Assembly: GCA_019429185.1 (NCBI GenBank)
Contig: JAHYJH010000004.1
Coordinates: forward strand, 1-64,000
Origin: Vicingaceae bacterium
GTDB lineage: Bacteria > Bacteroidota > Bacteroidia > Flavobacteriales_E > Vicingaceae
Length of the DNA stretch: 64,000 nt
Direction of reading: 5' to 3'
The notes beneath the pieces are model-generated. The model was given only the letters and a program-made list of their open reading frames with translations, had not been told where the DNA came from and made no database searches. The translations under genes and the position numbers were made by a program. Each line of letters opens with the position of its first letter. Positions within the stretch are counted from its first letter, which is position 1. This document shows, in pieces, positions 22,095 through 51,451 of this stretch.

Positions 22095-22880
22095 ATGAAA
22101 ACATTTTATCTTAAATACCTAATTCCTTCTATCAAAAAAAACAATGGGTTTAAAGAATTACTCGTTTTTTTAAGTTTTTTGGTCTTTTATAAAATTTCCA
22201 GATTTATTGCTATTGGAGATGAGTTAACAGCTTTTAATAATGCTTATCGGTTAATAAATGTAGAAGTGATAATGGGTATTTTTTATGAAATAAACATTCA
22301 GCATTTTTTTGCAGACTATACTTTTTTAATTAAAATTTTAAATAAATTTTATATGCTTGCTCACCTTCCTGTTACCATCTTATTTTTTGTTTGGGTTTAC
22401 CATAAAAGACACAACCATTATAAGTTTATCAGAAACGGATTTTTAATAGCTAATTCGTTAACCATATTTTTTTACGTAAATTATCCTTGTGCTCCACCTC
22501 GAATGTTGGGTAATGTAGGTTTTGTCGACACCTTACTTACAGTTAGTAATGTAAATTTATATACAGGGATGTTTTCAGGGTTATTTAATCAATATGCCGC
22601 TGTTCCTTCAATGCACTTCGGAAATGCTTTATTAATAGGAATCGTATTTTTTCTTTTAATAAAAAACAAACTAGTTAGTTGGTTATTCCTTATATATCCT
22701 ATATTTGTCCTTTTAGTTATTGTTGTTACAGGGAATCATTTCTTTTTAGATGCAATTATTGGTGGAATTGTTGTAATAATTCCTTATCCAATTTTGCTAC
22801 TTGCTAAAAAAGTTAACATAAGTAAAAATTACTCCTCTCGCACCTTGTCATTATTATTATTAAAAAGACACCATGATTAA
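22095..22880 (+). CDS. PAP2-superfamily membrane phosphatase / inositolphosphotransferase-like
   Basis: 261 residues with about six membrane helices. Motifs are CAPPRML (about residue 133), AAVPSMHFGNALLIG and GNHFFLDAIIGG, the PAP2_3 arrangement (PSxH and HxxxD). Such enzymes dephosphorylate lipids or transfer phospho-head groups at the membrane. It opens the plus-strand envelope locus and overlaps the next gene by 8 bp. It is preceded by a diverged leader element, so its translation may be controlled. Confidence 0.83.
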   Translation: MKTFYLKYLIPSIKKNNGFKELLVFLSFLVFYKISRFIAIGDELTAFNNAYRLINVEVIMGIFYEINIQHFFADYTFLIKILNKFYMLAHLPVTILFFVWVYHKRHNHYKFIRNGFLIANSLTIFFYVNYPCAPPRMLGNVGFVDTLLTVSNVNLYTGMFSGLFNQYAAVPSMHFGNALLIGIVFFLLIKNKLVSWLFLIYPIFVLLVIVVTGNHFFLDAIIGGIVVIIPYPILLLAKKVNISKNYSSRTLSLLLLKRHHD

Positions 22881-25800
22881 TCATGTAATGAATCAACAAG
22901 TCCTAAACTTATTTTTCCTATTTAATAAAAGAAATATTGGGTTATTCGTTCTAGTTTTATTGCTGTCATCTTCTTTTGTTGCTCAAAACAACATTTATGT
23001 TTTAGGCAACTTCAATGGAGCTAAGCTGCCAGAAAGACTAATTCAATTTGAAACCACATTAACTCATGAGCAAAACAATCAACCTTTTACATTATTGCTT
23101 TTGGGAGATGTGCATCAAGACCTACCCAAAAACACTAAAATACTAACCGATTTTCTTAAAAAAGTAAAATCAAAAGGAGCGGAAGTCATAGCCGTAACAG
23201 GAGATTTAGACTGGGATAACTCAGGTTATTATGGTTTAGACACAGTAAGTTCGCTACAGAAATCGTATAAAAAATTACTTGGAGAGAACATCTTTTTCCC
23301 AAAAAACGATTGTCCGGGTCCTTATGTAAAAGATATTGGAGATGACATTAGAATAATTGCCCTTAACTCACAATGGTGGTTACATCCATATCGAAAAGTG
23401 CTTCCTATAGATTCTGAATGTAAAGAAATTTTAAAAATTGAAATTTTAGATGAATTAGATGCTGCCATTGAAAGTGCAGGAAACAGAAAGGTAATTCTTA
23501 TGACGCATCATCCTATTACTTCGGGTGGAGTTTATGGTGGCAACTCCAATTTTATGGGGCAATTTTTCCCGTTTTCGCATAGCGACCCTGATAATAAAAC
23601 CTTTATTCCTTTTTATGGTACGTTTTATCATTGTTATCGCCAAAATATTGGTGAGATTCAGGATTTAAGCAACGATCAATATCAACTTTATATTAAAGAC
23701 ATAAAAAATGTGCTATTAAAACACGAAAATGTAGTGATATGCTCGGCCCACGAATACGATATGCAATTGCTGAATGTGAATTATAATTATCAAATTATTT
23801 CAGGAAATTTAGTGAAAAGTGCTCAAGTTAGTGCTTTAGAAAATACCATTTTTAAAACCAACAATACTGGTTTTGTTAAGTTGGAAATTAATCAAAACAC
23901 GCCAATTGTAAGTAAATTTTTTGTGTTGGATAAAAAAGAAAACAACTTTCAATTAGAAAAAAGTGTTGTGTTGGAAAGCAAAAAGAAAGTGCAAATTTTT
24001 AAAAACAAAATAAAATCTAATGCTGAGTTAAAACACTTTAACAACGATAGCATAGTCGCTGGAGATTACAAAGCATCGAAGTTTAAACAGCTTTTTTTCG
24101 GTTCTTTATATCGAGATGCATGGACAACTCCTGTTACCATTCCAACATTAGATTTAGACACTACTTTTGGCGGACTTACTCCACTAAAAAAAGGTGGCGG
24201 TTTGCAAACCATTTCCCTTCAGTTTGTTGATAAAGATGGAAGAAAATATGCTTTTCGTTCTATCGACAAAACACCCATTAAAGCCATTCCTTTTGAATTA
24301 CGGATTGATTTAGTAGCTAACATAATGCAGGATATGACTGCCACTCAACATCCTTACGGTGCATTGTTTGTTGCAAAACTATTGGATGCTACTCATCTTT
24401 ATCACGGTACTCCTAAACTTTACATTATGCCCGATTCCGAAAAATTAGGTGTTTTTAGAAGTCAGTTTTCGGGAATGTATGGCATGTTAGAACCTAAACC
24501 TACCGAATTAGATGATATAACAAAAAGCTACCAACAAGCCGACCAAGTAAAAAGCAGTTTGAGCTTACTACAAAAAATTTATAAATCGCCAAAAACCAAT
24601 ATTGATACCATGCAATATGCCGAAGCCAGGGTTGTTGATATTTTAATTGGCGATTGGGATCGTCATCAAGACAATTGGAAATGGATAGGCTATAAAAACG
24701 AACAAGATATTACCACCTACAAACCTTATCCGAAAGATAGAGACCATGCTTTTTCTAGAATGAATGGCTTGTTTTATTATTTGGCTGATAGAGATTGGGC
24801 AATTCCTTTTCGTGAAAACTTTAACGACCATTTTACCGGCATAAAAAGTTTAACCATCAAAGGGGCTCATTTAGATAGGTTGCTTTTATCGGGTATGAAT
24901 AAACAAGCTTGGCTAAAAGCTGCTAAAACCATTAATGCACAAATTACTGACGAAGTTATTGATGATGCCAAACTTGCTTTTCCTGAGCCGCTGCAAGAAA
25001 AATCGGGAAAAGAAATTGCCGAAAAATTGAAGAAACGAAAAACAGAATTAAATAAAGCTGTAGAAAAACATTACTTGTTACTTTCTAAAGAAGTTGACAT
25101 TGTTGGCACCAATAAAGCAGAGTTTTTCAACATAAATCGTTTGCCTTCGGGAGCTGTAGAAGTAAGCATGTATCAAAAAGAAGATACTTCTAATGTTTTA
25201 CTCAATAGAACTTTTTATCCTAACGAAACCAAAGAAATTCGTCTGTTTGGGTTAGCCAAAGCCGATAGTTTTTATGTGTATGGAACAAGCAATAAGAGTA
25301 TTTTAGTCAGAATTATGGGAGGCGATGGAAATGATAAAGTAGTTGATATTTCAAATGTAAAATGGGGAACTAGAAAAACATTGATTTATGATTATCCTAA
25401 TGGTATTGATGCAAAAAAAAGTAACGAAACACGTATTGCTTTTTCTGAAAAAAGCAAGTTAAACGAATTTGATCAAGATGCTTTTAAATACAATACCTAT
25501 TTGCCTGTTCCTATTTTAGTAGTTAATCCCGATGATGGTTTTGGTGGCGGCTTAAATTTGCAAATGAAACGCTTTGGTTATGCCAATAAACTATATAAAA
25601 CCCTGCACGATGTTAAGTTGTTTTCTACCACAGGCGGAAGTAATTATTTTTCCATTCAAACAGAAAGAAATATTGGAAGGTCTGATTTTTACCTCAATGG
25701 AAATGCCGAATTAGGTGCTTTCTTTCCTTTTTATAGTTTTTATGGCGTAGGTAACAAAACCGTTTTAGTAGATTCGCTGGAAGATGCAGGGTATTACAAA

Positions 25801-26526
25801 GCCAGGTATCAAGGTGCTATTTTAAAAGGAGGGATTACCTATCGTTTTTTAAGAAGAAGTTTTATATCGCTTAATGCAATTAGCGAATTATTGCAAAAAG
25901 GACATTCCGACCAATCGTTTTTTGATGTTTTTCCAAACCCACAGTTAGAACCAACCAATGCTACAGGTGGAGAAATAAAATTTGACCTCGATTTTAGAGA
26001 TAGCCCAAGCTTTACCACCAAAGGTATTCGGGTTGCTTTGGAAAATAAATCGCTATTTACCTCTTCTACGGCATTCGGAAAAACAAGTGCAGAAATCAGT
26101 TATTACAGTACTACACGCATAGGTATTCCTATAACACTTGGCGTTAAAGCTGGAACAGAAAGAACTTTTGGCAAAAACATTCCTTTTTATCATTTAGCCA
26201 GCATAGGGCAATCGTATCACTTGCGTGGATATTTACAAAATCGGTTTTCGGGCGAAGCAACCAACTATGTTAATACCGATTTGCGTTTCCATTTAGGAAA
26301 AAGTAAATCGAGCTTTTTGCCGATGTATTATGGCTTAAATGCGTTTATGGATGTGGGTCAGATAGTTGAGAATGAAAACTTCACCGAAAAAAAATGGCAC
26401 AACGGTTATGGCGGTGGAGTTTATTTAACACCCATCAGTAAAGATTATATTACCATTCAAGTTAATGTAGAATATTCTGATGAACAAAAGGCTTTCTTAA
26501 AAATTGGACTGGGATTAATCTTATAG
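22873..26526 (+). CDS. Outer-membrane fusion, paralog 1: degenerate phosphoesterase + HipA/Fam20-like segment + Omp85-type barrel
   Basis: 1217 residues. A signal segment (about 15-38) is followed by a calcineurin-like region (about 40-340) whose motifs are altered: LGNFNG, GDVHQ, GDLDW where GNHDW is usual, THHP, SAHEY. The middle has GGGLQTISLQF (about 441) and FRSIDK. It then has GDWDRHQDN (about 593), which matches the HipA/Fam20 loop GNxDRHxxN, and PKDRDHAF (about 620). The C-terminal third is rich in barrel strands with LRGYLQNRFSG (about 1116), the Omp85 loop motif. It is expected at the outer membrane. The kinase assignment is inference from motifs. Confidence 0.75.
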   Translation: MINHVMNQQVLNLFFLFNKRNIGLFVLVLLLSSSFVAQNNIYVLGNFNGAKLPERLIQFETTLTHEQNNQPFTLLLLGDVHQDLPKNTKILTDFLKKVKSKGAEVIAVTGDLDWDNSGYYGLDTVSSLQKSYKKLLGENIFFPKNDCPGPYVKDIGDDIRIIALNSQWWLHPYRKVLPIDSECKEILKIEILDELDAAIESAGNRKVILMTHHPITSGGVYGGNSNFMGQFFPFSHSDPDNKTFIPFYGTFYHCYRQNIGEIQDLSNDQYQLYIKDIKNVLLKHENVVICSAHEYDMQLLNVNYNYQIISGNLVKSAQVSALENTIFKTNNTGFVKLEINQNTPIVSKFFVLDKKENNFQLEKSVVLESKKKVQIFKNKIKSNAELKHFNNDSIVAGDYKASKFKQLFFGSLYRDAWTTPVTIPTLDLDTTFGGLTPLKKGGGLQTISLQFVDKDGRKYAFRSIDKTPIKAIPFELRIDLVANIMQDMTATQHPYGALFVAKLLDATHLYHGTPKLYIMPDSEKLGVFRSQFSGMYGMLEPKPTELDDITKSYQQADQVKSSLSLLQKIYKSPKTNIDTMQYAEARVVDILIGDWDRHQDNWKWIGYKNEQDITTYKPYPKDRDHAFSRMNGLFYYLADRDWAIPFRENFNDHFTGIKSLTIKGAHLDRLLLSGMNKQAWLKAAKTINAQITDEVIDDAKLAFPEPLQEKSGKEIAEKLKKRKTELNKAVEKHYLLLSKEVDIVGTNKAEFFNINRLPSGAVEVSMYQKEDTSNVLLNRTFYPNETKEIRLFGLAKADSFYVYGTSNKSILVRIMGGDGNDKVVDISNVKWGTRKTLIYDYPNGIDAKKSNETRIAFSEKSKLNEFDQDAFKYNTYLPVPILVVNPDDGFGGGLNLQMKRFGYANKLYKTLHDVKLFSTTGGSNYFSIQTERNIGRSDFYLNGNAELGAFFPFYSFYGVGNKTVLVDSLEDAGYYKARYQGAILKGGITYRFLRRSFISLNAISELLQKGHSDQSFFDVFPNPQLEPTNATGGEIKFDLDFRDSPSFTTKGIRVALENKSLFTSSTAFGKTSAEISYYSTTRIGIPITLGVKAGTERTFGKNIPFYHLASIGQSYHLRGYLQNRFSGEATNYVNTDLRFHLGKSKSSFLPMYYGLNAFMDVGQIVENENFTEKKWHNGYGGGVYLTPISKDYITIQVNVEYSDEQKAFLKIGLGLIL

Positions 26527-26573
26527 ATTGGAGATAAAAGTTGGAATACAGAAGAAAGGAATTGAGCATTGGC

Positions 26574-26606
26574 TTCCCCTCTTGAGAGGAGCAGGGGTGT
26601 GTTTTT
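26574..26606 (+). terminator. Hairpin of the dispersed CCCCTCTTGAGAGG type
   Basis: CCCCTCTTGAGAGGAGCAGG (26576-26595) and the following GG can fold on themselves, and TTTTT follows at 26602-26606. It lies between paralogs 1 and 2, whose gap is 125 bp. It may be a weak terminator. The same kind of sequence is a known dispersed intergenic repeat in this phylum. Confidence 0.45.
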
Positions 26607-26651
26607 ATAATTATGAACTAGAAATTTACGATTTTTTAACCTAAAATATAC

Positions 26652-29600
26652 TTGAAACAACTTTTTATAATATTGCTACTATCCCTTTTTGCTAAAAGTA
26701 TTTTTTCGCAAAGTACTGAAGTTGTTCCTTATTATCAGGTAATTAATATCGGTAATGTGGTTGATATAAAAAACAAAACTGCTTATGCTGCGGCATTAAA
26801 AACATTAATTGCTCAAGAAAAATTACCTACACTTTTAATTTTAAATGGCGATTTAACCCAAAAAAATGGTTCAGCATTTTTAAAAAATGATTCCTTACCG
26901 TTGTATGATTTTTTGAACGAATTGTCGGGAATTCCAAACACACAAACCATTGTTGTTGCTGGCGATAGAGATTGGGACAATTCGGGTAAAAAAGGCATTA
27001 AAAAAGTGAAACACTTAGAAAATTTAGTTGAATACAAAGGATTTAAAAACATTAAATGGGTGTTGGATAAAGGCTGCCCCGGACCGGAACTTATTGAGTT
27101 AGATAGCAACTTATTGCTAATGGTAATCAATACTCAATGGTGGAATCATCCTTACAAAAAACCCGAAGTAGTAAATGCCAATTGCGATATAAACACGCCT
27201 AAAGATTTTATTATTGAAGTAGAAAATGCCTTAGCAGAAACCGAAGATAAAAACTTAATTATAGCCGGGCATTTCCCTTTAGTAGAACAAGGAAACCTGC
27301 CTTTTATAAATCATTTATTCCCGCCTGTTTATGGGAGTTTTAAAACCTATTACCATCAAAACATAGGAGGAAAAAGAGATATTATTAACGCTAATTTTAA
27401 TCCCATAAGAGAAAAGATTTTAAATAGAATGTCGGTAAAAAGTGGTGTAATTTATTTTTCGGCACACGAATACAACACCCAAATTATTAAAGATTTTGAC
27501 AATTATTTTATCAATAACGGATTACCCGAATCATCTAAAAAAGCTAGAAAAACAAGGTTTGCCGTTTATTCTACTTCAAAACCAAGCATCACTAAAGTAA
27601 ATTATCATGTGGATGGTTCGGTGGTTGGTCTTAATTACCTATATAAAAATGAAAAATTTGTGTTAGATAAAAGTGTAATGCTTTACAAATCGCTTTTAGA
27701 TTCGAGCAATGACGACATTCCTGAAAACCATGCCAACAAAAGCTGTTTAAAAGATGTTTCTTCTACTTCTTTTCCTGAAAATGAAAGCATAGCTTTAGTT
27801 AATGCAGGAAATTATGACGCCTCTCGATTCAGAAAGTTTATTATAGGAAAACATTACCGTAAAAGCTGGAATACTTTTGTTGAAGTGCCTATTTTAAATA
27901 TGGATACCACAAAAAAAGGCTTGGTTGCTTACGATAAAGGTGGTGGACATCAAACCACTTCTGTAAAAATGGTTGGAAATGATGGTTTTGCTTATACTTT
28001 TCGTTCAGTAAATAAAGATGCCACACGAGGATTAAGTGCCGAACTAAAACACTCCTTATTAGCTCGTCAGTTGCAAGATAATGTTTCTATGCAACATCCC
28101 TATGGAGGATTAATTGTAAGCAAACTATTGGATAACACTACTATCTTGCACGCTCAACCTGATCTTTTTGTGTTGCCTTCTCATCCGAAATTGGGTATTT
28201 ACAATAAACACAGCGGAATGTTAGGCACGTTAGAAGATCATCAAAAAAATCCTAAAAAAGTAACACACGCTTTTGCCAATGCCGATTATTTGTTGCAAAG
28301 TTATGAGTTAAACAAAAAACGCTACGACAAGCAAAATCATACTATTGATGCAAAAGAATATACCAAAGCCAGGGTTTTCGACATCTTAGTTGGCGACCAT
28401 GGTAAACATCAAGACAATTGGAAATGGGCAGGTTACAAAACCGATACAGGCGTTTTTTATAGACCAATTCCCCGTGATAGAGATTTAGTTTTTGTTCAGT
28501 GGGACGGAATTATTCCTTGGTTGTTAGATAGAAAATGGATGCTAGAAGCAGGAGAAAATTTTGGCTATAAAATTAACGATGTAAAAAGTTTGATGTTTGT
28601 AGCAACCCCTCAAGATAGGCTGCTAACCAACGAAATGACCCGAAAAGATTGGTTAGAAGCAAGTGCTTACATTCAACATTCGCTAAACGATAGTTTAATT
28701 GATATTGCAGCACAAACATTGCCCAAAGAAATTTATGAACTATCAGGCAAAACCATAGCCGAAAAATTAAAAACCAGAATAAAAAACTTAGATAAGTATG
28801 CCGAAGAATATTACCAATTTTTAGCCAAACAAGTGGATGTGGTTGGAACTAACGAAAAAGAATTTTTTGAAATTACAAGAAATCCATCGGGTACAGTTGA
28901 TGTTAGTTTGTTTAATGTGGAGGAAGAACAAAAAGGCATGAAACAACTTTATCATCGAACATTCTTCCCATCAGAAACCAAAGAAATTAGGCTTTATGGA
29001 TTGGGAAGTAAAGATATTTTTGTACTAAAAGGTAAGGCGAAAAAATCCATTCCCATCATTATTGTTGGAGGAAAAGGTAATGATGTTATTTTAGACAGTT
29101 CATCTGTAAAAACGCCTGGAAAACAAACATTTATTTACGAAAAATCAAACAATGAAAACTCTTTTTTAGGAGCAGAAGCAAAGCATATAGATACTTGGAA
29201 TGATGATTTATACGATTTCCAACCTACCAAATTCAAATACAACAGGTATTTACCTTTGTTTTCGCTTAACTACAATGTTGATAATGGTTTTGGAACAAGT
29301 GCAGGAGTTATTTTTACTAAAAGAGAGCATTATAAAAACACCGATTATACAGCAAAACATAAATTTAATTTAGAAGTAACTACCGAACAAAACAACTCTT
29401 TTGAATACAGTAGTAAGTTCAGAAATGTGTTGCACAAATGGGATTTTACAGTTGGTGGTTTATTGGCAAATCACAACAAACTAACTAATTTTTATGGTTT
29501 AGGAAACAATACCGTAAACGATGATAGTTTGAGTGCTGCTAATTACTACAAAACTACTTACAACACCTATTCGGCACACATTGGGTTGGTTAGAGATTTT

Positions 29601-30296
29601 CGTAAAAAAAGCAGTTTTTATATCTCCACTCAATACGAGTACAACTCTGCACAAATTTCTGATAATACACTTTTTACTGCAACCGATGAAAACAGTTCTT
29701 CACTCATTTTTGGAACAAAAGGAAATGATATTATTGTTAGCACCGCAGGATTAGATTTAGATTTTAGAGACCGTTCTAACCTTCCAGAATCGGGTGTTAG
29801 ATTAGTTAGCGAATATCAAAACGGACAAGTAGTTTCGGAAAAAACCGATTACCATATTTTTAAAGGACATATTGAACATTATTTAACCGCCCGAATTCCT
29901 ACTCCCATCACTTTAGCTACAAAAGCTGGTGGTTCAATCAGCGAAGGAAACATTCCTTTTTACAATATGGTTTATTTGGGTAGCAACAATAATTTACGAG
30001 GTTTTAGAAGAAACCGATTTACAGGGAAATCTACCCTATTTTTAAACAATGAACTACGCATACAATTGGCTAATTTTACCACTTCATTTTTACCGATGAA
30101 AATGGGAATAAAAGTCTTTTTTGATACGGGTAGAATTTATGACGATTTAGATGTAACCAACAAATGGCACAGTGCTTATGGTGGTGGAATTTATTGGGGG
30201 TTTTTAGATGAGCAATTTACATTTAACTTATCGGTTGCTCATTCTGACGAAGAAAATGTTTTTGTATTGTTTAGTCTCGGAAAATCTTTTAATTAA
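26652..30296 (+). CDS. Outer-membrane fusion, paralog 2: most degenerate copy
   Basis: 1214 residues, same three-part plan as its neighbours. The signal peptide is MKQLFIILLLSLFAKSIFSQ from a TTG start. Phosphoesterase motifs are eroded (IGNVVD, NGDLTQ, GDRDWDNSG, GHFP, SAHEY). The kinase-like loop reads GDHGKHQDN (about 581), having lost the Asp-Arg of DRH, while PRDRD (about 606) remains. The Omp85-like motif LRGFRRNRFTG lies near residue 1114 and the last strand ends FSLGKSFN. The soluble parts may bind rather than catalyse, which is inference. Confidence 0.73.
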   Translation: MKQLFIILLLSLFAKSIFSQSTEVVPYYQVINIGNVVDIKNKTAYAAALKTLIAQEKLPTLLILNGDLTQKNGSAFLKNDSLPLYDFLNELSGIPNTQTIVVAGDRDWDNSGKKGIKKVKHLENLVEYKGFKNIKWVLDKGCPGPELIELDSNLLLMVINTQWWNHPYKKPEVVNANCDINTPKDFIIEVENALAETEDKNLIIAGHFPLVEQGNLPFINHLFPPVYGSFKTYYHQNIGGKRDIINANFNPIREKILNRMSVKSGVIYFSAHEYNTQIIKDFDNYFINNGLPESSKKARKTRFAVYSTSKPSITKVNYHVDGSVVGLNYLYKNEKFVLDKSVMLYKSLLDSSNDDIPENHANKSCLKDVSSTSFPENESIALVNAGNYDASRFRKFIIGKHYRKSWNTFVEVPILNMDTTKKGLVAYDKGGGHQTTSVKMVGNDGFAYTFRSVNKDATRGLSAELKHSLLARQLQDNVSMQHPYGGLIVSKLLDNTTILHAQPDLFVLPSHPKLGIYNKHSGMLGTLEDHQKNPKKVTHAFANADYLLQSYELNKKRYDKQNHTIDAKEYTKARVFDILVGDHGKHQDNWKWAGYKTDTGVFYRPIPRDRDLVFVQWDGIIPWLLDRKWMLEAGENFGYKINDVKSLMFVATPQDRLLTNEMTRKDWLEASAYIQHSLNDSLIDIAAQTLPKEIYELSGKTIAEKLKTRIKNLDKYAEEYYQFLAKQVDVVGTNEKEFFEITRNPSGTVDVSLFNVEEEQKGMKQLYHRTFFPSETKEIRLYGLGSKDIFVLKGKAKKSIPIIIVGGKGNDVILDSSSVKTPGKQTFIYEKSNNENSFLGAEAKHIDTWNDDLYDFQPTKFKYNRYLPLFSLNYNVDNGFGTSAGVIFTKREHYKNTDYTAKHKFNLEVTTEQNNSFEYSSKFRNVLHKWDFTVGGLLANHNKLTNFYGLGNNTVNDDSLSAANYYKTTYNTYSAHIGLVRDFRKKSSFYISTQYEYNSAQISDNTLFTATDENSSSLIFGTKGNDIIVSTAGLDLDFRDRSNLPESGVRLVSEYQNGQVVSEKTDYHIFKGHIEHYLTARIPTPITLATKAGGSISEGNIPFYNMVYLGSNNNLRGFRRNRFTGKSTLFLNNELRIQLANFTTSFLPMKMGIKVFFDTGRIYDDLDVTNKWHSAYGGGIYWGFLDEQFTFNLSVAHSDEENVFVLFSLGKSFN

Positions 30297-30320
30297 AACT
30301 GTACAATTATAAATATAAAA

Positions 30321-30378
30321 CCATTAAGAAGTTAAGAAACATGAAGAAAAACGCTTAATAATCTTAATGTCTTAATGG
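30321..30378. repeat. Inverted repeat overlapping the start codon of paralog 3
   Basis: CCATTAAGA (30321-30329) and TCTTAATGG (30370-30378) are exact inverted arms, with further matching between GTTAAGAAAC and GCTTAATAATCTTAA inside. The ATG of the third paralog (30375-30377) lies in the right arm. This is a common type of Bacteroidota intergenic repeat. Here it could hide the start codon in the mRNA. Confidence 0.5.
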
Positions 30379-33300
30379 TAGAAAAAACAAACGATTTGAA
30401 ATTCTCAAAAAATATCACCCTCCTCTTTTTTAGTTTTTTACTAATCAATCCCATTTTTACTCAACATAAAGACAGTATTGACCATGTTATCTTTTTGTTG
30501 GGCGATGCTGGCGAACCCAAAGAAAAAACACAAGCCGTTTTTAATGAGTTAATTCAACAAGCCAAAACCGTTGAAGAAAAAAGTATCATTTTCTTTTTGG
30601 GAGATAATGTTTATCCCAGTGGGATTCCTCCAAAAAACAAAAAAAATCACGAGCAAGCCAAAGCAATTATTGATTATCAAATCAATAGGCTAAAAGAACT
30701 AAAGTCAACCATTTATTTTATTCCAGGCAATCACGATTGGAACCAAGGCAAACGCAACGGATTAAGCTACATCAATCATCAACAAAAATACTTGCAAGAT
30801 GCTTTTAATGTGAAAGATGTGTTGATTCCCGAAAGAGGCTGCCCAGGCCCGTATAAAGTAAAAATTAGTAAAAACATGGTAGTTATTGCCATAGATACGC
30901 AGTGGTGGCTACATCAATACGAAAAAGGGCCAGTAAAAACTGGCGATTGTGAGGAAGAAACCAAAGCAGATGTAATTGCAAACATTAAAGATATTTTAGA
31001 AGAAAATACCGATAAAACAGTTTTAATTGTTGGGCATCATCCGTTAATTACCAAAGGCGAACACAATGGTTATGCTACGTTGTCCGACCATCTTTTTCCG
31101 CTTACTAACCTCAACAAAAATTTATATCTTCCGCTGCCTATTTTAGGTTCTATTTACCCGTTGTATCGCAAAAAAATTGGCAATATTCAAGATGTAAACC
31201 ATGCCGAATACCAAAAAATGATTAGCGAACTGCAACATATTTTTAAATTTCATCCAAACCTGATTTATGCTGCCGGACATGAGCATAATTTGCAATATTT
31301 TGATAAAACCAAATATCAAAACCTTCATTATATTGTAAGTGGTTCGGGAAGCAAAACCACACCTGTTAAAAAACTAAAAGCACCTGATTTTTCTGCCAAA
31401 GAAAAAGGATTTTTTAAATTAATAGTGCTTCATTCTGGAGCTGTTTTAATGGAAACTTGGAAAATTACCAACGAAAAATCGGAACTTATTTTTAGCAAAA
31501 CTTTAGTTGAAGAAAAAAAGCAAGAACCTAAAAATGAGGATGCTAATTTAATAAGGGATTATGACCCCTTGCCAAAAACAATGACATTAATCCCAGGTAA
31601 AAACTATGAAGCAAGTTTTATGAAAAAGTTTTTGTTGGGTGAGCATTACCGAAAAGCGTGGCAAACCCCCATTGAAGTGCCTACTATTGATATTCATAAT
31701 ACGCATGGTGGTTTGACTCCTATAAAAAAAGGTGGCGGACAACAAACAAAATCATTACGCTTAAAAGCCGAAAATGGCAACGAATACGTTTTTCGTTCCA
31801 TTCAAAAAGACCCTTCAAATGCTTTGCCAGACGAATTAAGAAATACGGCTGCTGCCGAAGTGGTACAAGATCAAATATCAACGGCTCATCCTTACAGTGC
31901 TTTTGTTATTCCACCAATGGCAGAAGCTGTTGGTATTTTACACTCCAAACCACAGTTAGTTGCAGTGCCAAACGACCCCCATTTGCTGGAATATCGTGAA
32001 GATTTTGCCAACCAACTCATGTTGTTTGAACAACGTGCTGCCAAAGATGTTTCTTCTACCGAAAATTTTGGTTACACCACCAATGCCATCAATTCTCAAA
32101 AACTGATTCATAAAGTGTTAGATGACCATAATTTTGTTATTGATGAAGAAGAAATGCTCCGAAATCGTTTGTTTGATATGTTAATTGGCGATTGGGACAG
32201 ACACGAAGATCAATGGCGTTGGGCTGAATATACTTGTGCAAAAGAAAACCACGAACATTGCAGCCATTTAATTGATAATAATAAATACTACATTCCTATT
32301 CCAAGAGACCGGGACCAAGCTTTTGTAAAGTTTGATGGCTTAATTCCTCGCTTGGCAGGAAGAAAATGGGTGGTTCGGAAACTCCAACATTTCGATTACG
32401 ATATTCGTGATATTAGTGGGATGAATTTTAATGGAAGATACATTGACCGCTCATTTTTAACTCGGTTAGACAAACAAGAATGGCTCGATTTAGCAGCAGA
32501 AATGCAACAAAACTTAACCGATAGTGTGATTATTAATGCCATTAAACTTTGGCCCGACACCATTTATAAACTTGATGGAGAAGAAATTACTGCCAAATTA
32601 CTTTCGAGAAGAGATAAACTACAAGAATTTGCCGAACGATACTATAATGTGTTGGCAAAACACGTAAATGTGGTGGGCAGCAATAAAGCCGAAAAATTTG
32701 AAATTGTTAGAGTAAATGATACCATCACTTCCGTAAAAGTTTATCACTTAAAAAAAGGAGAAAAAGGCAGCTTGTATTACAGTAGAAATTTTAATCGGTT
32801 TGAAACCAAAGAAATTAGAATTTATGGCTTGGGAGGAAAAGATGTGTTTACCATAGAAGGAGAGGTAAATAAAGGGATTTTAGTGCGAATTATTGGAGGA
32901 CAAGGAAATGATGAAATTACCGATATTTCTAACGTAAAAGGACTTCGTAAAAAAACAAAATACTACGATACCAAAAAAGAAGAAAATATAGTAGTTTGTG
33001 AAAAAAACAACGAACTAAAAAATTTGGTTTCGCATCAAAAAATGATTAACGAATACGACCGAAAAGAGTTTAAATACGATATGCTTATTCCACAATTATT
33101 TGTAGGTTATAACATAGATGATGGATTGTTTTTAGGCGGAGGAGTTGCCATTACCAAACACGGATTTAGAAAAAAACCTTATGCTCATTTTAATCGGTTT
33201 GTGGCTAATAGAGCGTTGAAAACGAACAGTTTTAATATTGAATATAAAGGAAGGTTTACTGATTTAATAAAAAAACTAGATTTAGACATCAACGCTTCAA

Positions 33301-34130
33301 TTAATGCTCCTAATAGCACCACCAATTTTTATGGTTTGGGCAACGAAACTCAAGTGGTAAATGGCGAAGACAACGCATTTCATTTAGTGCGATTTAACGA
33401 AATTAAATTCCAACCGATGTTGGTGCATAATGTAGGGAAATTTAATGAAATTACGTTTGGACCAAAATACCAACACATTGATGTAGAAGCTTCTGAAGAT
33501 AGGTTTATAACAAGCAACTTTGCCTCCAGCTATGTCAATAGTTTGACAGCAAGAAATTATTTAGGAGTAGAATTACAATATTCATTTAATAATACCGATA
33601 ATAAAATTATCCCTACACGAGGAATTAATTTTCACGTTGGCGGTAGTTGGGAAAGAGAAGCCGAGAATGCGAGTTTACAAGTTGGAAGGTTAGAGTCGCA
33701 ATTTGCCATGTATTTGCCTTTCGGGAAAAATGTGGTATTTTCCTCCAATGTTAAAGGCGTTCATTTGATTGATAAATTTGAATTTTTTCAGGCAGCAACC
33801 ATTGGAGCTAAAAACAGAAATCACCTTAATGGCGATTTAAGAGGATTTAGGCGAGATCGTTTTTCTGGAAGAAGTAGTTTAACTTTTAATCAGGATTTAC
33901 GCATAAAACTTACTGATTTTAAATCTTATTTATTTCCAGGGCAATTGGGAATACTCGGGTTCTTCGATTTAGGAAGGGTTTGGACAAGCAATGACTCCTC
34001 AACAAAATGGCACAACAGTGTTGGTGGTGGTGTTTGGATGAGTCCTTTTGATATGTTGGTAATAAATGCTTCTTACGCTGTTTCGTCAGAAGAAAATTTA
34101 TTTATACTTAAAATGGGATTTTTGTTTTAG
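30375..34130 (+). CDS. Outer-membrane fusion, paralog 3: intact calcineurin-like phosphoesterase + HipA/Fam20-like segment + Omp85-type barrel
   Basis: 1251 residues. The phosphoesterase motifs are complete: LLGDAGEP, LGDNVYPSG, PGNHDWNQG (about 118), GHHPL and GHEHNLQYF (about 301). The middle has GGGQQTKSLRL, FRSIQK, GDWDRHEDQW (about 603; the last Asn is Gln) and PRDRDQAF (about 642). The barrel carries LRGFRRDRFSG (about 1153) and ends ILKMGFLF, a typical beta-signal with terminal Phe. The signal segment ends near NPIFTQ. It is the best candidate for an active enzyme in the trio. The substrate is unknown. Confidence 0.77.
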   Translation: MVEKTNDLKFSKNITLLFFSFLLINPIFTQHKDSIDHVIFLLGDAGEPKEKTQAVFNELIQQAKTVEEKSIIFFLGDNVYPSGIPPKNKKNHEQAKAIIDYQINRLKELKSTIYFIPGNHDWNQGKRNGLSYINHQQKYLQDAFNVKDVLIPERGCPGPYKVKISKNMVVIAIDTQWWLHQYEKGPVKTGDCEEETKADVIANIKDILEENTDKTVLIVGHHPLITKGEHNGYATLSDHLFPLTNLNKNLYLPLPILGSIYPLYRKKIGNIQDVNHAEYQKMISELQHIFKFHPNLIYAAGHEHNLQYFDKTKYQNLHYIVSGSGSKTTPVKKLKAPDFSAKEKGFFKLIVLHSGAVLMETWKITNEKSELIFSKTLVEEKKQEPKNEDANLIRDYDPLPKTMTLIPGKNYEASFMKKFLLGEHYRKAWQTPIEVPTIDIHNTHGGLTPIKKGGGQQTKSLRLKAENGNEYVFRSIQKDPSNALPDELRNTAAAEVVQDQISTAHPYSAFVIPPMAEAVGILHSKPQLVAVPNDPHLLEYREDFANQLMLFEQRAAKDVSSTENFGYTTNAINSQKLIHKVLDDHNFVIDEEEMLRNRLFDMLIGDWDRHEDQWRWAEYTCAKENHEHCSHLIDNNKYYIPIPRDRDQAFVKFDGLIPRLAGRKWVVRKLQHFDYDIRDISGMNFNGRYIDRSFLTRLDKQEWLDLAAEMQQNLTDSVIINAIKLWPDTIYKLDGEEITAKLLSRRDKLQEFAERYYNVLAKHVNVVGSNKAEKFEIVRVNDTITSVKVYHLKKGEKGSLYYSRNFNRFETKEIRIYGLGGKDVFTIEGEVNKGILVRIIGGQGNDEITDISNVKGLRKKTKYYDTKKEENIVVCEKNNELKNLVSHQKMINEYDRKEFKYDMLIPQLFVGYNIDDGLFLGGGVAITKHGFRKKPYAHFNRFVANRALKTNSFNIEYKGRFTDLIKKLDLDINASINAPNSTTNFYGLGNETQVVNGEDNAFHLVRFNEIKFQPMLVHNVGKFNEITFGPKYQHIDVEASEDRFITSNFASSYVNSLTARNYLGVELQYSFNNTDNKIIPTRGINFHVGGSWEREAENASLQVGRLESQFAMYLPFGKNVVFSSNVKGVHLIDKFEFFQAATIGAKNRNHLNGDLRGFRRDRFSGRSSLTFNQDLRIKLTDFKSYLFPGQLGILGFFDLGRVWTSNDSSTKWHNSVGGGVWMSPFDMLVINASYAVSSEENLFILKMGFLF

Positions 34131-34200: not shown

Positions 34201-35088
34201 ATGAGAAAAATTAACCCTACAATTTTATCGCTCTTGGCTTTTTTAATGCTTTTAAGTCAGTTAAAAGCACAGGATGTAAAAATAGATAAAGCAGGTCATA
34301 GTTGCAATTATTGCGTCAATGGAGAACACACCAATGAATCGCCTTATGAGATAAATTTTAAAAAAGAAATTCCATTTTTCGCAGCAGGAATAGGCTTATT
34401 AAGTTCTGGACTTATTCTTATGAAATACAATCAAAAAGATGTTTTTACACTTAATGAACTTAATCAATTGGATGCAAATAATGTAAATCGTTTTGATAGA
34501 GTTGCAATTAATAATAACAATGAAGAATCGAAAGAAATAAGCGATATTTTGCTTTATTCTGAACTAGCCTTGCCTCTTTTCTTTTTTAGTAATCACCACA
34601 CAGGGAAAGACTTTGGGCGACTTGGCATTATGGCAGTTGAAGTATTTGCAATAACATCTGGATTAACCATGAATGCAAAATATGCTTTTAACAGAACCAG
34701 ACCTTTAGTTTATAATGATGAAATTTCTTTTGATACTAGAACTGCATCTAACAGCAGGTTATCCTTTTTTTCGGGACATACGGCACAAACCGCAGCTTTT
34801 TCTGTTTTTATGGCAAAAGTAATTCACGATTATCATCCCAATATGAAAAAAGGAATAGAAATAGGAATATGGACAGTTGCTATAACATTACCTGCCGCTA
34901 TGGCTTACCTTAGGGTAGATGCAGGCAACCATTTTCCTTCCGATGTAATTGTTGGCTATGCCATTGGTGCTTCTGTGGGTTGGTTAGTGCCACATTTACA
35001 TAAAAAGAAAAACAAAGAATCTAATTTGTCTGTTGCTCCATTTAGGTATGGAAATGCAACAGGGTTAACATTGAATTGGAAACTGTAA
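34201..35088 (+). CDS. PAP2-family acid phosphatase, envelope-located
   Basis: 295 residues. A signal peptide (about 1-23, ending LKAQ) and several hydrophobic helices surround the full PAP2 signature: KYAFNRTRP (K-x6-RP), FFSGHTAQ (SGH) and RVDAGNHFPSDV (R-x5-H-x3-D). It therefore looks catalytically competent. Substrates in this family include lipid A phosphates, undecaprenyl pyrophosphate and phosphatidic acid; motifs do not choose between them. It lies between the barrel fusions and an LpxR-like gene, which favours outer-envelope lipids. Confidence 0.85.
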   Translation: MRKINPTILSLLAFLMLLSQLKAQDVKIDKAGHSCNYCVNGEHTNESPYEINFKKEIPFFAAGIGLLSSGLILMKYNQKDVFTLNELNQLDANNVNRFDRVAINNNNEESKEISDILLYSELALPLFFFSNHHTGKDFGRLGIMAVEVFAITSGLTMNAKYAFNRTRPLVYNDEISFDTRTASNSRLSFFSGHTAQTAAFSVFMAKVIHDYHPNMKKGIEIGIWTVAITLPAAMAYLRVDAGNHFPSDVIVGYAIGASVGWLVPHLHKKKNKESNLSVAPFRYGNATGLTLNWKL

Positions 35089-35106: not shown

Positions 35107-36081
35107 ATGAAATTGAAATTTTTTACCATCTTACTTTTGTTATTAACCTCTGGGGTGTGGGCTCAAAAAAAAGTGTACGACCAAGAAATTCAACTTCAAA
35201 AAGACAATGATATTTTAACTTTTAAACGAAAAGTTGCCGACAGGTATTACTCTTTTGGATTACATTTCGACTACAGAAAATTAGCAGAAGATGATAGCAA
35301 AATAGTTGAATTAACTAAAAAACTAAAACCCAATTTAGAAAAAGTAATTGTAAACTGGCACGTTGGTATTGAGGGCTATACCTCCGACCAAGACCGAGAT
35401 AAACAAGTAAATAGCGTTTTTGTAGAGTTTGACAGACCGTATGCTGGATGGCTTTTTGCCGAAAATAAAATTACAGTTGCTAATCAAAAGTCATTAACCT
35501 TTTTTAGTTTAACTTTAGGCGTTTTAGGACCCGCTTCTGGAGCCGAAAAATTGCAAGATAATTTTCATGTGTTAATTAACAATCCAAAACTTGAAGAATG
35601 GGACAACCAGGTACAAAATGAGTTGGCAGCGAATATTGGCGTAGGATTTAACCTTCCTTTACTATCGTTGGGAAAATTTGATATTCATTCGCAATCAAGT
35701 GCAAGTTTGGGAACGCAAGCTACTTATTTTAAACAAGGATTTATGGGTAGGTTTGGGAAATTTAACAGCATAGACAACACCTTTTTTTACAACACGAACT
35801 TAACACATGAAGATGCTCCACCCGAAAGCGAATATTTTTTAGACTTTGGAGCTCATTTAATTACTTGGGGCTATAAAGCAACCATACAAGGTCGGTTTTT
35901 TGGAGAAAACAATAACATGAATACAGAAGGTATGCACAGAGTTAATGTGGATGTTTCCGCAGCTATTAATTTTTCGAGAAGAAGATTTACCACTTTTTTC
36001 AGACATCATTTAATTACTGCAGAAACTACTAGGGGAAGACATTTTTATTACGGAAGTTTAGGCTTAATTTTGAAAATATAA
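35107..36081 (+). CDS. LpxR-family lipid A deacylase-like outer-membrane protein (DUF2219)
   Basis: 324 residues with a signal peptide (ends GVWAQ). QKDNDILTF, DRYYSFGLHFDY and FVEFDRPYAGWLFAENK match the LpxR/DUF2219 pattern (NDxxx, then Y-x-x-G, then DRPYAGW). The rest alternates like a 12-strand barrel, ending SLGLILKI. LpxR removes the 3'-acyloxyacyl chain of lipid A. Activity here is inferred from family only. It follows the PAP2 gene by 18 nt and is very likely co-transcribed with it. Confidence 0.8.
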   Translation: MKLKFFTILLLLLTSGVWAQKKVYDQEIQLQKDNDILTFKRKVADRYYSFGLHFDYRKLAEDDSKIVELTKKLKPNLEKVIVNWHVGIEGYTSDQDRDKQVNSVFVEFDRPYAGWLFAENKITVANQKSLTFFSLTLGVLGPASGAEKLQDNFHVLINNPKLEEWDNQVQNELAANIGVGFNLPLLSLGKFDIHSQSSASLGTQATYFKQGFMGRFGKFNSIDNTFFYNTNLTHEDAPPESEYFLDFGAHLITWGYKATIQGRFFGENNNMNTEGMHRVNVDVSAAINFSRRRFTTFFRHHLITAETTRGRHFYYGSLGLILKI

Positions 36082-38251: not shown

Positions 38252-38355
38252 TTTGTAAAATTGATTGGTTTATTTTACAAAAATAAGTATATTTTGATTA
38301 GTACACTACGCAAAACACAACTATTTTTAAATAGTCAACTATACAAAACCATCTA

Positions 38356-38613
38356 CTACACAACCAAATACATTAATTTTGTATTTCCGAGTTTTTCTTT
38401 GGCTATTTGTAATAAAAGTGTTGTTTTTCCTACACCTCTTGCTCCTTTTATAGCAATTAAACGATTGTTTAAATCAATAGAATGAAATAAATACCTTTTA
38501 AAGGTTGTGTTTACCTGAGTAAGTTTTATTTGATGTTCTAAAATTAAACTCTCCATAAATTGCTTTTTGTATTTAGGGTCTGTAATGAAATAAAGTGTGC
38601 TGCGTGGGTTCAT
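38356..38613 (-). pseudogene. Truncated AAA_14-type ATPase (N-terminal fragment)
   Basis: 85 residues that align with the start of the neighbouring intact ATPase: LEHQIKLTQVNTTFKRYLF parallels IIQQANSSLKRYLYQ. The Walker A GARGVGKTTLL is kept, after which the frame ends at LMYLVV. Everything beyond (Walker B, C-terminal domain) is missing. The DNA after its stop (38276-38355) contains a small ACTATTT/AAATAGT hairpin. It starts next to the hsdR stop codon and contains the left copy of a 23-bp inverted repeat (38572-38594). It is probably a remnant at an island edge. Confidence 0.75.
38572..38594 (+). repeat. 23-bp inverted repeat, left copy
   Basis: The plus strand here begins TTTAGGGTCTGTAATGAAAT and continues three more bases. 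Its exact reverse complement is at 47814-47836. The two copies enclose hsdR, the AbiE-like pair, the RAYT, hsdS, the GxxExxY gene and hsdM. Confidence 0.7.
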
Positions 38614-43509: not shown

Positions 43510-43513
43510 ACTA

Positions 43514-43521
43514 CAAAGGTA
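43514..43521 (-). promoter_or_regulatory. TAnnTTTG -7 element of the AbiE-like operon
   Basis: TACCTTTG on the minus strand, 4 nt before the ATG, the same spacing as at trpS. The TTGACATTTG of the operator arm lies about where the -33 element is expected. Confidence 0.6.
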
Positions 43522-43534
43522 GTTATTTTAATTC

Positions 43535-43570
43535 AAATGTCAAGTTTTTTACATCAAAAACTTGACATTT
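43535..43570. promoter_or_regulatory. Perfect inverted-repeat operator before the AbiEi-like gene
   Basis: AAATGTCAAGTTTTT (43535-43549) and AAAAACTTGACATTT (43556-43570) are exact reverse complements separated by 6 nt. The promoter-proximal arm overlaps the presumed -33 region, so binding of the AbiEi-like protein would block RNA polymerase. A role as RNA hairpin or terminator for the RAYT gene is less likely because of the A/T content and position. Confidence 0.65.
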
Positions 43571-43675
43571 TTACTAATTATTGATTGTAAATGTGTGTTT
43601 TCGTTTTTTCATTAACCATTAATAATTGACCATTAACCATTGCTTTCGTCTTTTCTAATTTTTCTTTGGTGAATT

Positions 43676-44305: not shown

Positions 44306-44327
44306 TTATTAATTTACGTTTTTTGTT

Positions 44328-45690: not shown

Positions 45691-45719
45691 CTCTAATCAC
45701 GGTAATTTTACAATCCTTT

Positions 45720-45738
45720 TTAATCATGGTTCAAGACT
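45720..45738. repeat. 19-bp direct repeat, copy next to hsdS
   Basis: TTAATCATGGTTCAAGACT, identical to 46130-46148, bounds the GxxExxY gene. Similarity continues outward (AATCCT..TTAATC). In this copy the repeat supplies the stop codon of the GxxExxY gene. Confidence 0.7.
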
Positions 45739-48247: not shown

Positions 48248-50272
48248 TTAGTTTTTAAGTTTTAAATAATCGTAAAAATCGTATTGAGCCCTTATGCTGG
48301 TTGTTGATGTAGATTTTTTATAAGGATTGCTTTGCGTTTTATTCAAATTTCTTGCTTTAACATTGTCTTTTAATTGAAGTGCGATTAATTTTTTAATTTC
48401 ATTTTTAAGTTTCGTGTTATAAACAGGAAAAGCCACTTCAACCCTGTGGCTTAAGTTTCTTTTCATCCAATCTGCCGAAGCCAGATACAGTTTTTCATCG
48501 CCATTGTTATGAAACAAATAAATTCTTCCGTGTTCTAAATATCGGTCAATTATACTAATTACTTTAATGTTTTTGCTCATGCCTTCCACGCCAGGAATCA
48601 AACAACAAATACCTCTTACAATAATGGTTATTTTAACTCCTGCATTACTTGCATCATAAAGTTTATTAATCATTTGTTTGTCTTCTAAACTGTTCATTTT
48701 AAGCACCATTTTTCCAACCCTTCCGTTTTGTACATGTTCTATTTCAACATCAATTAAGCGTTCGAACTCTTGGCGTAAATTAAACGGGGCAACTAACAAA
48801 TGATTAAAAGTAGGCTGTTTAATTTCTCCTTTTAAAAAACTAAAGACTTTGTTTAATTCGTTAGTTAATTGAATATCGGAAGTTAACAAGGCATGGTCGC
48901 AATAAATTTTTGAAGTATCTTCATTAAAATTACCCGTTCCAAAATAGGCGTAGTTCACTACTTTTTCGCCTTCATGTCGTTTAATTAAACAAATTTTAGA
49001 ATGTACTTTCAGCTCATCAAAACTATAAATTACATTTACTCCAGCAGCTTTCATTTCGCTTGCCCATTTCATGTTTAGTTCTTCATCAAATCGGGCTTTT
49101 AATTCACTAAAAACCGTTACTTTTTTGCCATTTTTGGCAGCAACAATAAGTGCTTTACAAATTCGAGATTCTTTGGCAACACGGTAAAGGGTAATGTTTA
49201 TTTCGAGCAATTGAGGGTCGATACTGGCTTGTTCAACAAAATTGAGTACGTATTCATATTGTTGATAAGGAAAATGCAAGGCAAATTCTTTTTGCTGAAG
49301 GGCTTCAAAAATAGACGAATAATTAGCTAATTCAGAATGATTTAGTGTAGGCAAATCATCATAAAAAAGTGATGGATTTCCTACTACTGGAAATTTAAAA
49401 AAATCATTAAAATTATGGTGGCGACCACCAGGAACCAGTTCGTCCTTTTTTATTCCCAATGCTTTTCTTACCAATTTTAAGATTGCTTTTGGCATTTTTT
49501 CATCATAAAGAAAACGAGTGGGATCGCCAATTTTTCTTTTATGTAAACTGTTCAAAATTTTCCCTTTAACTGTTTCAGCAATTTCTTCTTCTAAATACAA
49601 TTCGGCATCTCTGCTTAGTTTCACGGAATAACATTCGGGAGAATTTATTTCAGGTACAAGTTCTTTAATAAACAATCGCATTACGTCTGACAACATAATA
49701 ATTACTTCATTATTAGCATCCGAAGGTAATTTTATAAATCTTTCTGTTTTATCGGTAGGAATATGTAAAAGAAAAACATCAAAAGTCTCTGCTAAATTGC
49801 TTACAGTTAAGTATAATCCCTTGTCATTTAAAAAAAGAGGAGCATTAATATCAAGCTTAATCTTTTTTATTAAGGGCTTAATCTTTTTATTAAAATACGT
49901 TACCAAAAAATTATATTGAAGAGCCTCTACTTCATCTTTATTGATAATATAAATTTTTTCTTTTTGCAACAACGGAATCAACTCATCATTAAAAATTCTT
50001 CCAAATTCAATTTGTTGTTTTTTAACAATTTTGTTTATTTTTTTGAGTAATTTCTTTAATTTTTCATCTTTTGGAAGGTTTTCTAACTCCTGAAGTTTAA
50101 GAATGTGTTTGTATGACGCAACCCTAACCCGATAAAATTCATCCAAATTGGAAGAATAGATAGCCAAAAAACGTAAGCGTTCAATAAGTGGAACTTTAGG
50201 ATTTATGGCTTCTTGTAAAACCCTATAATTGAATGACAACCAACTTAATTCTCTATCGAAATAATTATTCAT
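48248..50272 (-). CDS. ppk1: Polyphosphate kinase 1
   Basis: 674 residues, usual length. The N-domain begins [20 protein letters not shown]. The phosphotransfer histidine lies in [13 protein letters not shown] (about residue 424), after the conserved [30 protein letters not shown] and [16 protein letters not shown] belong to the two catalytic C-domains. It makes inorganic polyphosphate from ATP. It is divergent from the DUF2652 gene across a 69-bp gap. Nothing appears damaged. Confidence 0.95.
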
Positions 50273-50336: not shown

Positions 50337-50344
50337 TAAGTTTG
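50337..50344 (+). promoter_or_regulatory. TAnnTTTG -7 element of the DUF2652 gene
   Basis: TAAGTTTG at this position overlaps the first possible TTG start codon (50342). If it is the promoter, translation more likely begins at the in-frame TTG at 50363 or close to it. Confidence 0.5.
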
Positions 50345-51451
50345 TTCGTTAAAATAGCTCCTTTGCAGATAGACGATACATTAAAGAAATCCTTACTACT
50401 AATACCTGATATTAGTGGTTTTACTCGCTTTGTGAATGATACCGAAATTATTCATGGTACTCATATTGTTGCAGAATTACTCGAAATTATTATAAAAAGC
50501 AATATATTAGACCTTAAAGTAGCAGAAATTGAAGGTGATGCTGTACTTTTCTATCGCATAGGAAAGAAACCCACAATAAAAGAAATTTACGCTCAGTGCG
50601 AAAAAATGTTTTTAGCGTTTCATCAACATTTAAAACTTTATGAAAGAGACCGTATTTGCGATTGTGGTTCTTGTACACACACTCCTGAGCTTACCCTAAA
50701 ATTTGTTGTTCACTATGGCAATATTGTAGAAAGACAAATTGTTGGTCATCTGCAATTGATGGGACCAGAAGTAACTACGGTGCATAAACTCATGAAAAAT
50801 GATTTAGAAATGCATGAATATATGCTAATTACTGATAATTTATTAGGAAAGACCAATGCCATTGATGCATTAAATTGGACTACTTTTTCAAAAGGACATT
50901 CATTTTATGATGATTTAGGAGAGGTAAACTATTTTTATACCTATTTTAAGGATTTATTAGCTAACGTACCTGAACCGCAACCTCGAAAAGAAGTTAAACT
51001 AGATAACCCTACAGTGCATATCGAAACTAAAATTAAAACTTCAGCAGCAAAAGCTCATGAGCTACTTAAAGACCTCAACCGAAAAAAAGAGTGGATAGTT
51101 GGACTTAAAAAGGTAAAGTTTGACCAAACTAAAGTGCCTCGAATTGGAACACAACACGAATGTTTGTTGCCGTTTAATTCGTTAAACATTGTAACATCAG
51201 AAAATAAAACTACTTCTGATAACAAAATTATTTATGCCGAAAGAGTAATTAATGGAGGGTTTTTACCTACTTCTAGCCATGTTTTTACCATCGAACCCTT
51301 CAATGATAATGAAATAAAACTTTCTATGGATATTTTCTTTAAAAACACCTTTTTAAATAGAATGTTTAAAGAAGTAATGCGAAAATCATTTACTAAATCA
51401 ATAGCCAATTTTAGAGCTATTTTAGAAGATAAAATTAATGATGATTTGTAA
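50342..51451 (+). CDS. DUF2652 (class III cyclase-like) + SRPBCC domain protein
   Basis: 369 residues from the first TTG; a start near 50363 is also possible. Residues about 15-190 are DUF2652. LLIPDISGFTRFVND and EIEGDAVLFYR keep both Asp residues that bind metal in class III nucleotide cyclases. GPEVTTVHKLMKND occupies the place of the cyclase G-x-x-V-N-x-A-A-R segment without its Asn and Arg. CDCGSCTHTP is a cysteine cluster. Residues about 215-360 are an SRPBCC lipid-binding-like fold. Cyclase activity is unproven. It converges with an HD-PycTM gene with 17 bp overlap. Confidence 0.78.
   Translation: MFVKIAPLQIDDTLKKSLLLIPDISGFTRFVNDTEIIHGTHIVAELLEIIIKSNILDLKVAEIEGDAVLFYRIGKKPTIKEIYAQCEKMFLAFHQHLKLYERDRICDCGSCTHTPELTLKFVVHYGNIVERQIVGHLQLMGPEVTTVHKLMKNDLEMHEYMLITDNLLGKTNAIDALNWTTFSKGHSFYDDLGEVNYFYTYFKDLLANVPEPQPRKEVKLDNPTVHIETKIKTSAAKAHELLKDLNRKKEWIVGLKKVKFDQTKVPRIGTQHECLLPFNSLNIVTSENKTTSDNKIIYAERVINGGFLPTSSHVFTIEPFNDNEIKLSMDIFFKNTFLNRMFKEVMRKSFTKSIANFRAILEDKINDDL

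Follow-up and report, generated by a model that had tools for sequence, protein, structure and literature searches.

Three tandem genes and their shared four-part plan

The window, that is, the whole stretch of 64,000 nucleotides analysed here from a Vicingaceae bacterium (contig JAHYJH010000004.1), carries three consecutive genes on the plus strand. Each gene follows one plan of four parts: a phosphoesterase, a kinase-like domain, a beta-rich linker and an Omp85 barrel. The genes and their main features are as follows.

22873..26526, plus strand: copy 1 (W1), 1217 aa; the phosphoesterase is degenerate and the kinase-like domain keeps its motifs; linker and Omp85 barrel follow
24028..25074, plus strand: kinase-like domain of copy 1, motifs intact (DWDRHQDNW, PKDRD)
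26652..30296, plus strand: copy 2 (W2), 1214 aa, TTG start; degenerate phosphoesterase, kinase-like domain without the catalytic Asp (DHGKH), linker, Omp85 barrel
27774..28814, plus strand: kinase-like domain of copy 2, with GKH in place of DRH
30375..34130, plus strand: copy 3 (W3), 1251 aa; five of five purple acid phosphatase motifs in the phosphoesterase, motifs of the kinase-like domain intact, then linker and Omp85 barrel
30471..31559, plus strand: phosphoesterase domain of copy 3 (GDAG, GDNVY, GNHD, VGHH, GHEH); Pfam Metallophos 1.4e-8; purple acid phosphatases in the PDB profile search
31566..32645, plus strand: kinase-like domain of copy 3; AlphaFold pLDDT 91.3; Foldseek matches CtkA, CotH and HipA
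32190..32216, plus strand: putative catalytic loop DWDRHEDQW of copy 3; D, W, D, R, H, D, Q and W identical in 22/22 divergent relatives
32301..32315, plus strand: PRDRD of copy 3, candidate metal-binding motif; P, D, R and D identical in 22/22, paired by hhalign with CotH IPxDxD
32652..33089, plus strand: beta-rich linker of copy 3 from kinase to barrel, no POTRA match
33096..34127, plus strand: Omp85-type barrel of copy 3, Pfam Omp85 3.5e-11
33837..33863, plus strand: L6 loop LRGFRRDRF of copy 3; in the model of copy 1 the corresponding loop joins barrel strands 11 and 12

A sequence-only reading of this DNA had described three consecutive open reading frames of 1217, 1214 and 1251 residues built alike. 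Their coordinates and strand were confirmed, and the plan is not a product of chance because full-length relatives occur across Bacteroidota. Three family copies were found in the source genome, all of them in the window. They are full-length paralogues, each with a signal-like N-terminal sequence, and copies 1 and 2 share about 31% identity with copy 3. Domain borders in copy 3 (phosphoesterase, residues 33-395; kinase-like domain, 398-757; linker, 760-905; barrel, 908-1251) were placed from the alignment and later checked against the break points in relatives. Relatives break at these same borders, which supports the split. Besides its matches in copy 3, Pfam gave a Metallophos match in copy 1 that was marginal only (9e-4) and a ShlB barrel match in copy 2 (6.6e-9). 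NCBIfam Omp85_fam matched all three copies, each under its curated cut-off. An Rfam scan of the window found no RNA family. Elsewhere in the window, a 592-aa protein with MORN_2 repeats is encoded at 5743-7521 on the plus strand.

Profile and fold searches with the phosphoesterase domain returned purple acid phosphatases and GAP50, and a single-sequence PDB search returned purple acid phosphatases and nanobodies only. Calcineurin-like motifs had been read in each copy. They are intact in copy 3, which carries the whole purple acid phosphatase set GDxG / GDxxY / GNHD / VxxH / GHxH, and degenerate in copies 1 and 2, where GNFN / GNVV, GDLD / GDRD and AHEY stand in place and motifs I, II, III and V are lost wholly or partly. 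Likewise, GDWDRHQDN had been ascribed to every copy; this does not hold for copy 2, which reads GDHGKHQDN, without the Asp and Arg of the catalytic loop. The phosphatase and kinase residues are thus complete in copy 3; copy 1 is without the phosphatase site and copy 2 is without both. Since the same losses recur in relatives (both copies in L004, the copy 1 type in L005), they are inherited and are not sequencing errors, and they suggest a division of labour among the copies after duplication. The combination of phosphoesterase, kinase-like domain and barrel on a single polypeptide, as first read from the letters, is borne out in copy 3.

The kinase-like domain and its side of the outer membrane

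No Pfam model covers the middle domain. A Pfam scan of 49 members gave no credible family for it, with neither HipA (PF07804) nor CotH (PF08757) listed, and Pfam plus NCBIfam searches of copies 1-3 likewise gave nothing credible; in plasmid records, relatives of the domain are labelled hypothetical protein or left without annotation. We predicted its structure by AlphaFold from a 49-row alignment (pLDDT 91.3, pTM 0.92) and searched the model against the PDB with Foldseek. CtkA was the top match (E 3.6e-6, probability 1.00), followed by CotH (8.8e-5, 0.99), HipA (2.4e-3, 0.98) and PI4K-II beta (5.1e-3, 0.98), with Rio2 also among the matches. The similarity to CtkA is borderline, with a TM of 0.55 by target and an rmsd of 9.5 A across a gapped alignment. 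The model has strands at 53-59, 66-71 and 76-81, a helix at 98-107 and a strand at 153-159, then the loop with DRH, strands at 220-226 and 243-249, and DRD at 251-253. In copy 3, a GGGxQT loop lies amid the strands, R474 on the third strand, D499 in the helix and E552 near a strand end; DWDRHEDQW, the strand pair and PRDRD follow. The predicted order is that of an N-lobe with a glycine-rich loop and a C-lobe in which the catalytic loop precedes two paired strands and an Asp for metal binding. As far as a model can decide it, the kinase fold of the middle domain is well supported; the kinase-like layout proposed earlier from motifs held up under structure prediction, fold search and residue conservation.

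By hhalign against CotH (PF08757), GDWDRH was paired with the NWDxY region and PxDRD with IPxDxD at a score of 31.1, where 60 column shuffles reached at most 23.3, and the HH probability was just 5.6%. A PDB profile search matched CtkA with the DRH motif aligned at an E value of 0.21, below significance. For HipA, the hhalign score fell within the range of shuffled columns and was dropped as evidence although the motif aligned.

Among 22 divergent relatives (below 60% identity and outside the group of copies 1 and 2), the glycine-rich loop, the R, K, D and E positions, DWDRH and PxDRD are fixed or nearly so, and the kinase residues vary less than the phosphatase residues. Judged from these alignments, selection on the kinase-like active site is strong; catalytic phosphotransfer by the domain is our inference. 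Two positions are peculiar to the family: most members have Gln for the metal-binding Asn of usual kinases, and Arg occupies the position of the beta-3 Lys.

The side of the membrane on which such a reaction would run may be read from the barrel. In a full-length model of copy 1 (pLDDT 81, pTM 0.66) we counted 16 barrel strands from the predicted elements. As in BamA, the LRGY motif falls between strands 11 and 12, and the fold matches of the barrel are BamA, TamA and Sam50. Together with the Pfam matches, the 16 strands and the conserved RGF/RGY L6 loop bear out the Omp85-type barrel of the sequence-only reading and place the proteins in the Omp85 superfamily, of which the barrel is the defining feature (PMC4104836). 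As a Pfam scan of copies 1-3 found no POTRA domains, we do not file the family under the BamA, TamA or TamL subfamilies; the same scan gave no patatin match, which sets the copies apart from type Vd (PlpD-like) proteins. The domain arrangement in the full-length model is reliable no further than strand parity. With an even number of strands and L6 on the outside, the N-terminal enzyme domains would come to lie on the periplasmic side.

The domains had at first been assigned to the cell surface. A surface-exposed kinase-phosphatase that uses its own Omp85 barrel for export or anchorage would suit the signal-like N-termini and the barrel, and PlpD was once seen in this way, as a surface-secreted enzyme (discussed in PMC4104836). 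However, a 16-stranded barrel whose L6 follows strand 11 leaves the N-terminal side in the periplasm, and PlpD itself, the nearest precedent studied by experiment, was later shown to keep its enzyme domain there (PMC11116518), so we regard a surface location as improbable. By this parity and by analogy with PlpD, the enzyme domains probably lie in the periplasm, at the inward-facing side of the outer membrane.

A kinase in this place is a puzzle, and with it comes a further explanation. We know of no ATP supply in the periplasm; a kinase there would need another donor, or is no kinase. The domain could then be a pseudokinase: it might sense phosphate or nucleotides, or bind proteins, and in this way control the phosphatase or the barrel. 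The Gln at the expected Asn would be in keeping with this, as would the persistence of copy 2 and its L004 relative despite the loss of DRH. There are also degenerate kinase-barrel proteins (L131, L132 at 3452-6112, L134, L135 and L136), in which the kinase is eroded, DRH is lost and the barrel is kept. Yet a pure binding module would not need DWDRH and PxDRD, both fixed in 22/22 divergent members outside the group of copies 1 and 2, and forms without a fused phosphatase to control are common. We therefore hold a pseudokinase to be a serious but rather unlikely alternative to an active phosphotransferase.

Domain layouts and gene neighbourhood

The kinase domain is carried by 114 of 296 Bacteroidota genomes and is also present in a Rhodothermales MAG (L081). 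Phosphoesterase-kinase-linker-barrel is the commonest layout, and kinase-linker-barrel, kinase-linker and kinase alone occur as well. In the forms without a barrel (L123-L126, L130, L137) the N-terminus, read by eye, is lipoprotein-like, signal-like or a membrane anchor, so the kinase domain appears to be extracytoplasmic in every layout. On the tree of kinase domains the full four-part layout needs at least six gains or losses on well-supported branches, a number that may in truth be lower because the tree includes L122 and L140 (phosphatase-less, cut by contig ends) and L076 (incomplete at the other end). L122 and L140, which start at contig ends, were excluded from the argument on kinase-barrel forms. 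In L110, L111 and L142, phosphoesterase and kinase are separate genes, adjacent or overlapping, which supports a joint function of the two. Stand-alone CotH kinase genes were also seen a few kb from family members (G070:C10:23802-24674 and G019:C15:16534-17403).

It is also conceivable that the barrel is the functional part, a factor for outer-membrane protein assembly or translocation like BamA or TamA, with enzyme domains that are just docking sites in place of POTRA. Its matches to BamA, TamA and Sam50 and its conserved L6 RGF/RGY motif agree with such a role. Against it stand the barrel-less kinase domains, the strict conservation of the catalytic residues and the lack of a POTRA match, and we give this possibility the least weight of those discussed here.

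Several neighbouring genes in the window bear on the function of the family.

22095..22880, plus strand: PAP2_3 membrane protein (PF14378 2.6e-36), overlapping the start of copy 1
34201..35088, plus strand: PAP2 phosphatase-family protein (PF01569 1.8e-20), 70 bp past copy 3; PAP2 adjoins the family in other lineages too
35107..36081, plus strand: LpxR-family outer-membrane protein (lipid A 3'-O-deacylase family; PF09982 1.9e-41), with homologues in the closest loci, L004 and L005, only
48248..50272, minus strand: polyphosphate kinase PPK1 (PF13090 2.2e-72 and other PPK domains), a conserved neighbour of the family
50342..51451, plus strand: DUF2652 protein (PF10851 5.1e-43), a conserved neighbour
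51435..52589, minus strand: HD domain fused to a Pycsar-effector-type membrane domain (HD-PycTM; PF18967 1.1e-33, PF01966 5e-7), from a cluster of 68 loci

PAP2_3, copies 1-3, PAP2 and the LpxR-family gene form an operon-like run on one strand with short gaps. This run would fit lipid A modification in particular, an adjustment of lipid A phosphates and acyl chains. LpxT offers a precedent: this member of the PAP2 family works in the periplasm, where it phosphorylates lipid A with undecaprenyl pyrophosphate as donor. PAP2 adjoins the family in L004-L006, L012, L014, L018, L029 and L076. On the other hand, LpxR adjoins it in the closest relatives only, PAP2 proteins have many substrates, and most members have PPK1, HD-PycTM and SdiA-regulated genes as neighbours instead. 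So narrow a role is in our view unlikely.

Across public-genome loci the recurrent neighbours were HD-PycTM (68), an SdiA-regulated/phytase-like secreted protein (30), DUF2652 (30) and PPK1 (27), along with a SixA-like phosphatase and PAP2. PPK1 lay within 20 kb of the family in at least 26 of the 114 carrier genomes, from 10 families, against 1.6 genomes expected; this is a lower bound from an evenly drawn genome set with positions transcribed by hand, in which related genomes are not independent. In L007, L127 and L129 the genes for PPK1, the SdiA-regulated protein and the family are co-directional, and two of these three are kinase-barrel forms without phosphatase. The window shows PPK1, DUF2652 and HD-PycTM in the same order as its close relative L004, where PPK1 follows the family genes by about 3 kb; in the window a restriction-modification island (37082-47709) separates the two. 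The neighbourhood with PPK1 is an association only.

The island itself holds HsdR, HsdS, a split HsdM, a DUF6088/AbiEii pair (41843-43509), an IS200-like transposase remnant (43676-44305) and an AAA_14/DUF4143 ATPase (37082-38251). Its type I HsdM (46134-47709, minus strand) consists of two open reading frames whose halves match consecutive parts of N6_Mtase with a one-frame shift near 46800, and is either a broken methylase or an assembly error. PycTM is the membrane domain found in Pycsar effectors against phages. Its fusion to an HD domain is conserved beside the family on chromosomes across Bacteroidota, and often beside PPK1 too, which suggests a role beyond defence. In L123, a membrane-anchored free kinase domain lies near a gene that, judged by eye, resembles a proton-pumping pyrophosphatase (coordinates 1921-4350 and 5364-6650), with PPK1 about 6 kb away.

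Proposed role and comparison with known systems

Taken as a whole, the explanation towards which we lean is that an outer-membrane enzyme family widespread in Bacteroidota has expanded locally to these three genes, that its core is kinase-linker-barrel, with the phosphoesterase an add-on gained or lost several times, and that it acts as a periplasmic phosphotransferase/phosphatase, anchored in the outer membrane and linked to the economy of phosphate and polyphosphate. Built on the computed architecture, kinase fold, residue conservation and neighbourhood, the mechanism would run as follows. A POTRA-less 16-stranded Omp85 barrel would anchor a CotH/CtkA/HipA-like kinase domain on the periplasmic side, and many members would add a purple-acid-phosphatase-type phosphoesterase to the same anchor. 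The kinase domain may transfer phosphate inside the periplasm, and the phosphoesterase may strip phosphate from envelope substrates of the same or a related class; lipid A, phospholipids, lipoproteins and small phospho-compounds are candidates. The pair would set the phosphorylation state of the substrate and, together with PPK1, feed the phosphate economy. In the window, copy 3 could carry out both reactions and copy 1 the kinase reaction only, with copy 2 as a putative non-catalytic partner.

A bolder version makes this an ATP-independent periplasmic kinase family, whose donor would be exported or envelope phosphate (PPK1 polyphosphate or lipid pyrophosphate), whose targets would be envelope molecules and whose fused phosphatase would be the reverse arm; we put it forward as a speculation with the odds against it. 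For Flavobacterium johnsoniae, the published low-phosphate gene table has no entry with both PF00149 and Omp85, and induction by phosphate starvation is unsupported there (PMC8115612). A strictly conserved kinase domain in more than one third of the sampled Bacteroidota genomes, often beside PPK1 and probably facing the periplasm from the outer membrane, makes the donor question directly testable.

In the literature searched, we found no paper that reports a fusion of kinase and Omp85, or PPK1, SixA and HD genes clustered in Bacteroidetes, nor any that describes the kinase domain or its PPK1 link, although such absence is no proof; papers on TamL and the Bacteroidota BAM mention neither kinase nor phosphoesterase. 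New here are the kinase-linker-barrel form without phosphatase, the kinase without barrel and the presence of the family near PPK1. The family also suggests that the use of Omp85 barrels as anchors of envelope enzymes extends beyond the patatin example.

Each part of these proteins has known counterparts. The phosphoesterase finds its best profile and fold matches in purple acid phosphatases (TRAP) and GAP50, with all five motifs shared by copy 3; here, in contrast, it is fused to a kinase and a barrel, and its motifs are lost in copies 1 and 2. CotH kinases have the same fold, are also extracytoplasmic and, by the low-probability hhalign pairing, may correspond in the catalytic and PxDxD motifs, whereas the family has no Pfam CotH match, carries its own R and Q for the expected K and N and is fused to a barrel. 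Helicobacter CtkA is the best structural match; CtkA and HipA share the D-R-H spacing, and a GxQ-type glycine-rich loop is common to the family and HipA. Those kinases are soluble, however, and the sequence-profile matches to them are not significant. PlpD and FplA (patatin-Omp85, type Vd) also place an enzyme ahead of an Omp85 barrel, but PlpD has a patatin lipase and a POTRA domain, neither of which was found in the proteins here.

The closest relation is to the Omp85 Metallo subfamily. The sequence-only reading knew of no described system with this combination, yet fusions of a phosphoesterase (PF00149) with Omp85 were catalogued in 2014 by Heinz and Lithgow, who called the domain a metalloprotease (PMC4104836); the kinase is absent from that description, in which the word does not occur. 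Copy 3 belongs there by Pfam, with PF00149 N-terminal to the barrel, and copies 1 and 2 by homology only. The subfamily is probably the same kind of protein as the family described here, likened by description and not by the exact 2014 sequence set. Its label would accordingly change from metalloprotease to phosphatase plus kinase, and the kinase domain, the phosphatase-less forms and the PPK1 neighbourhood go beyond the Metallo description.
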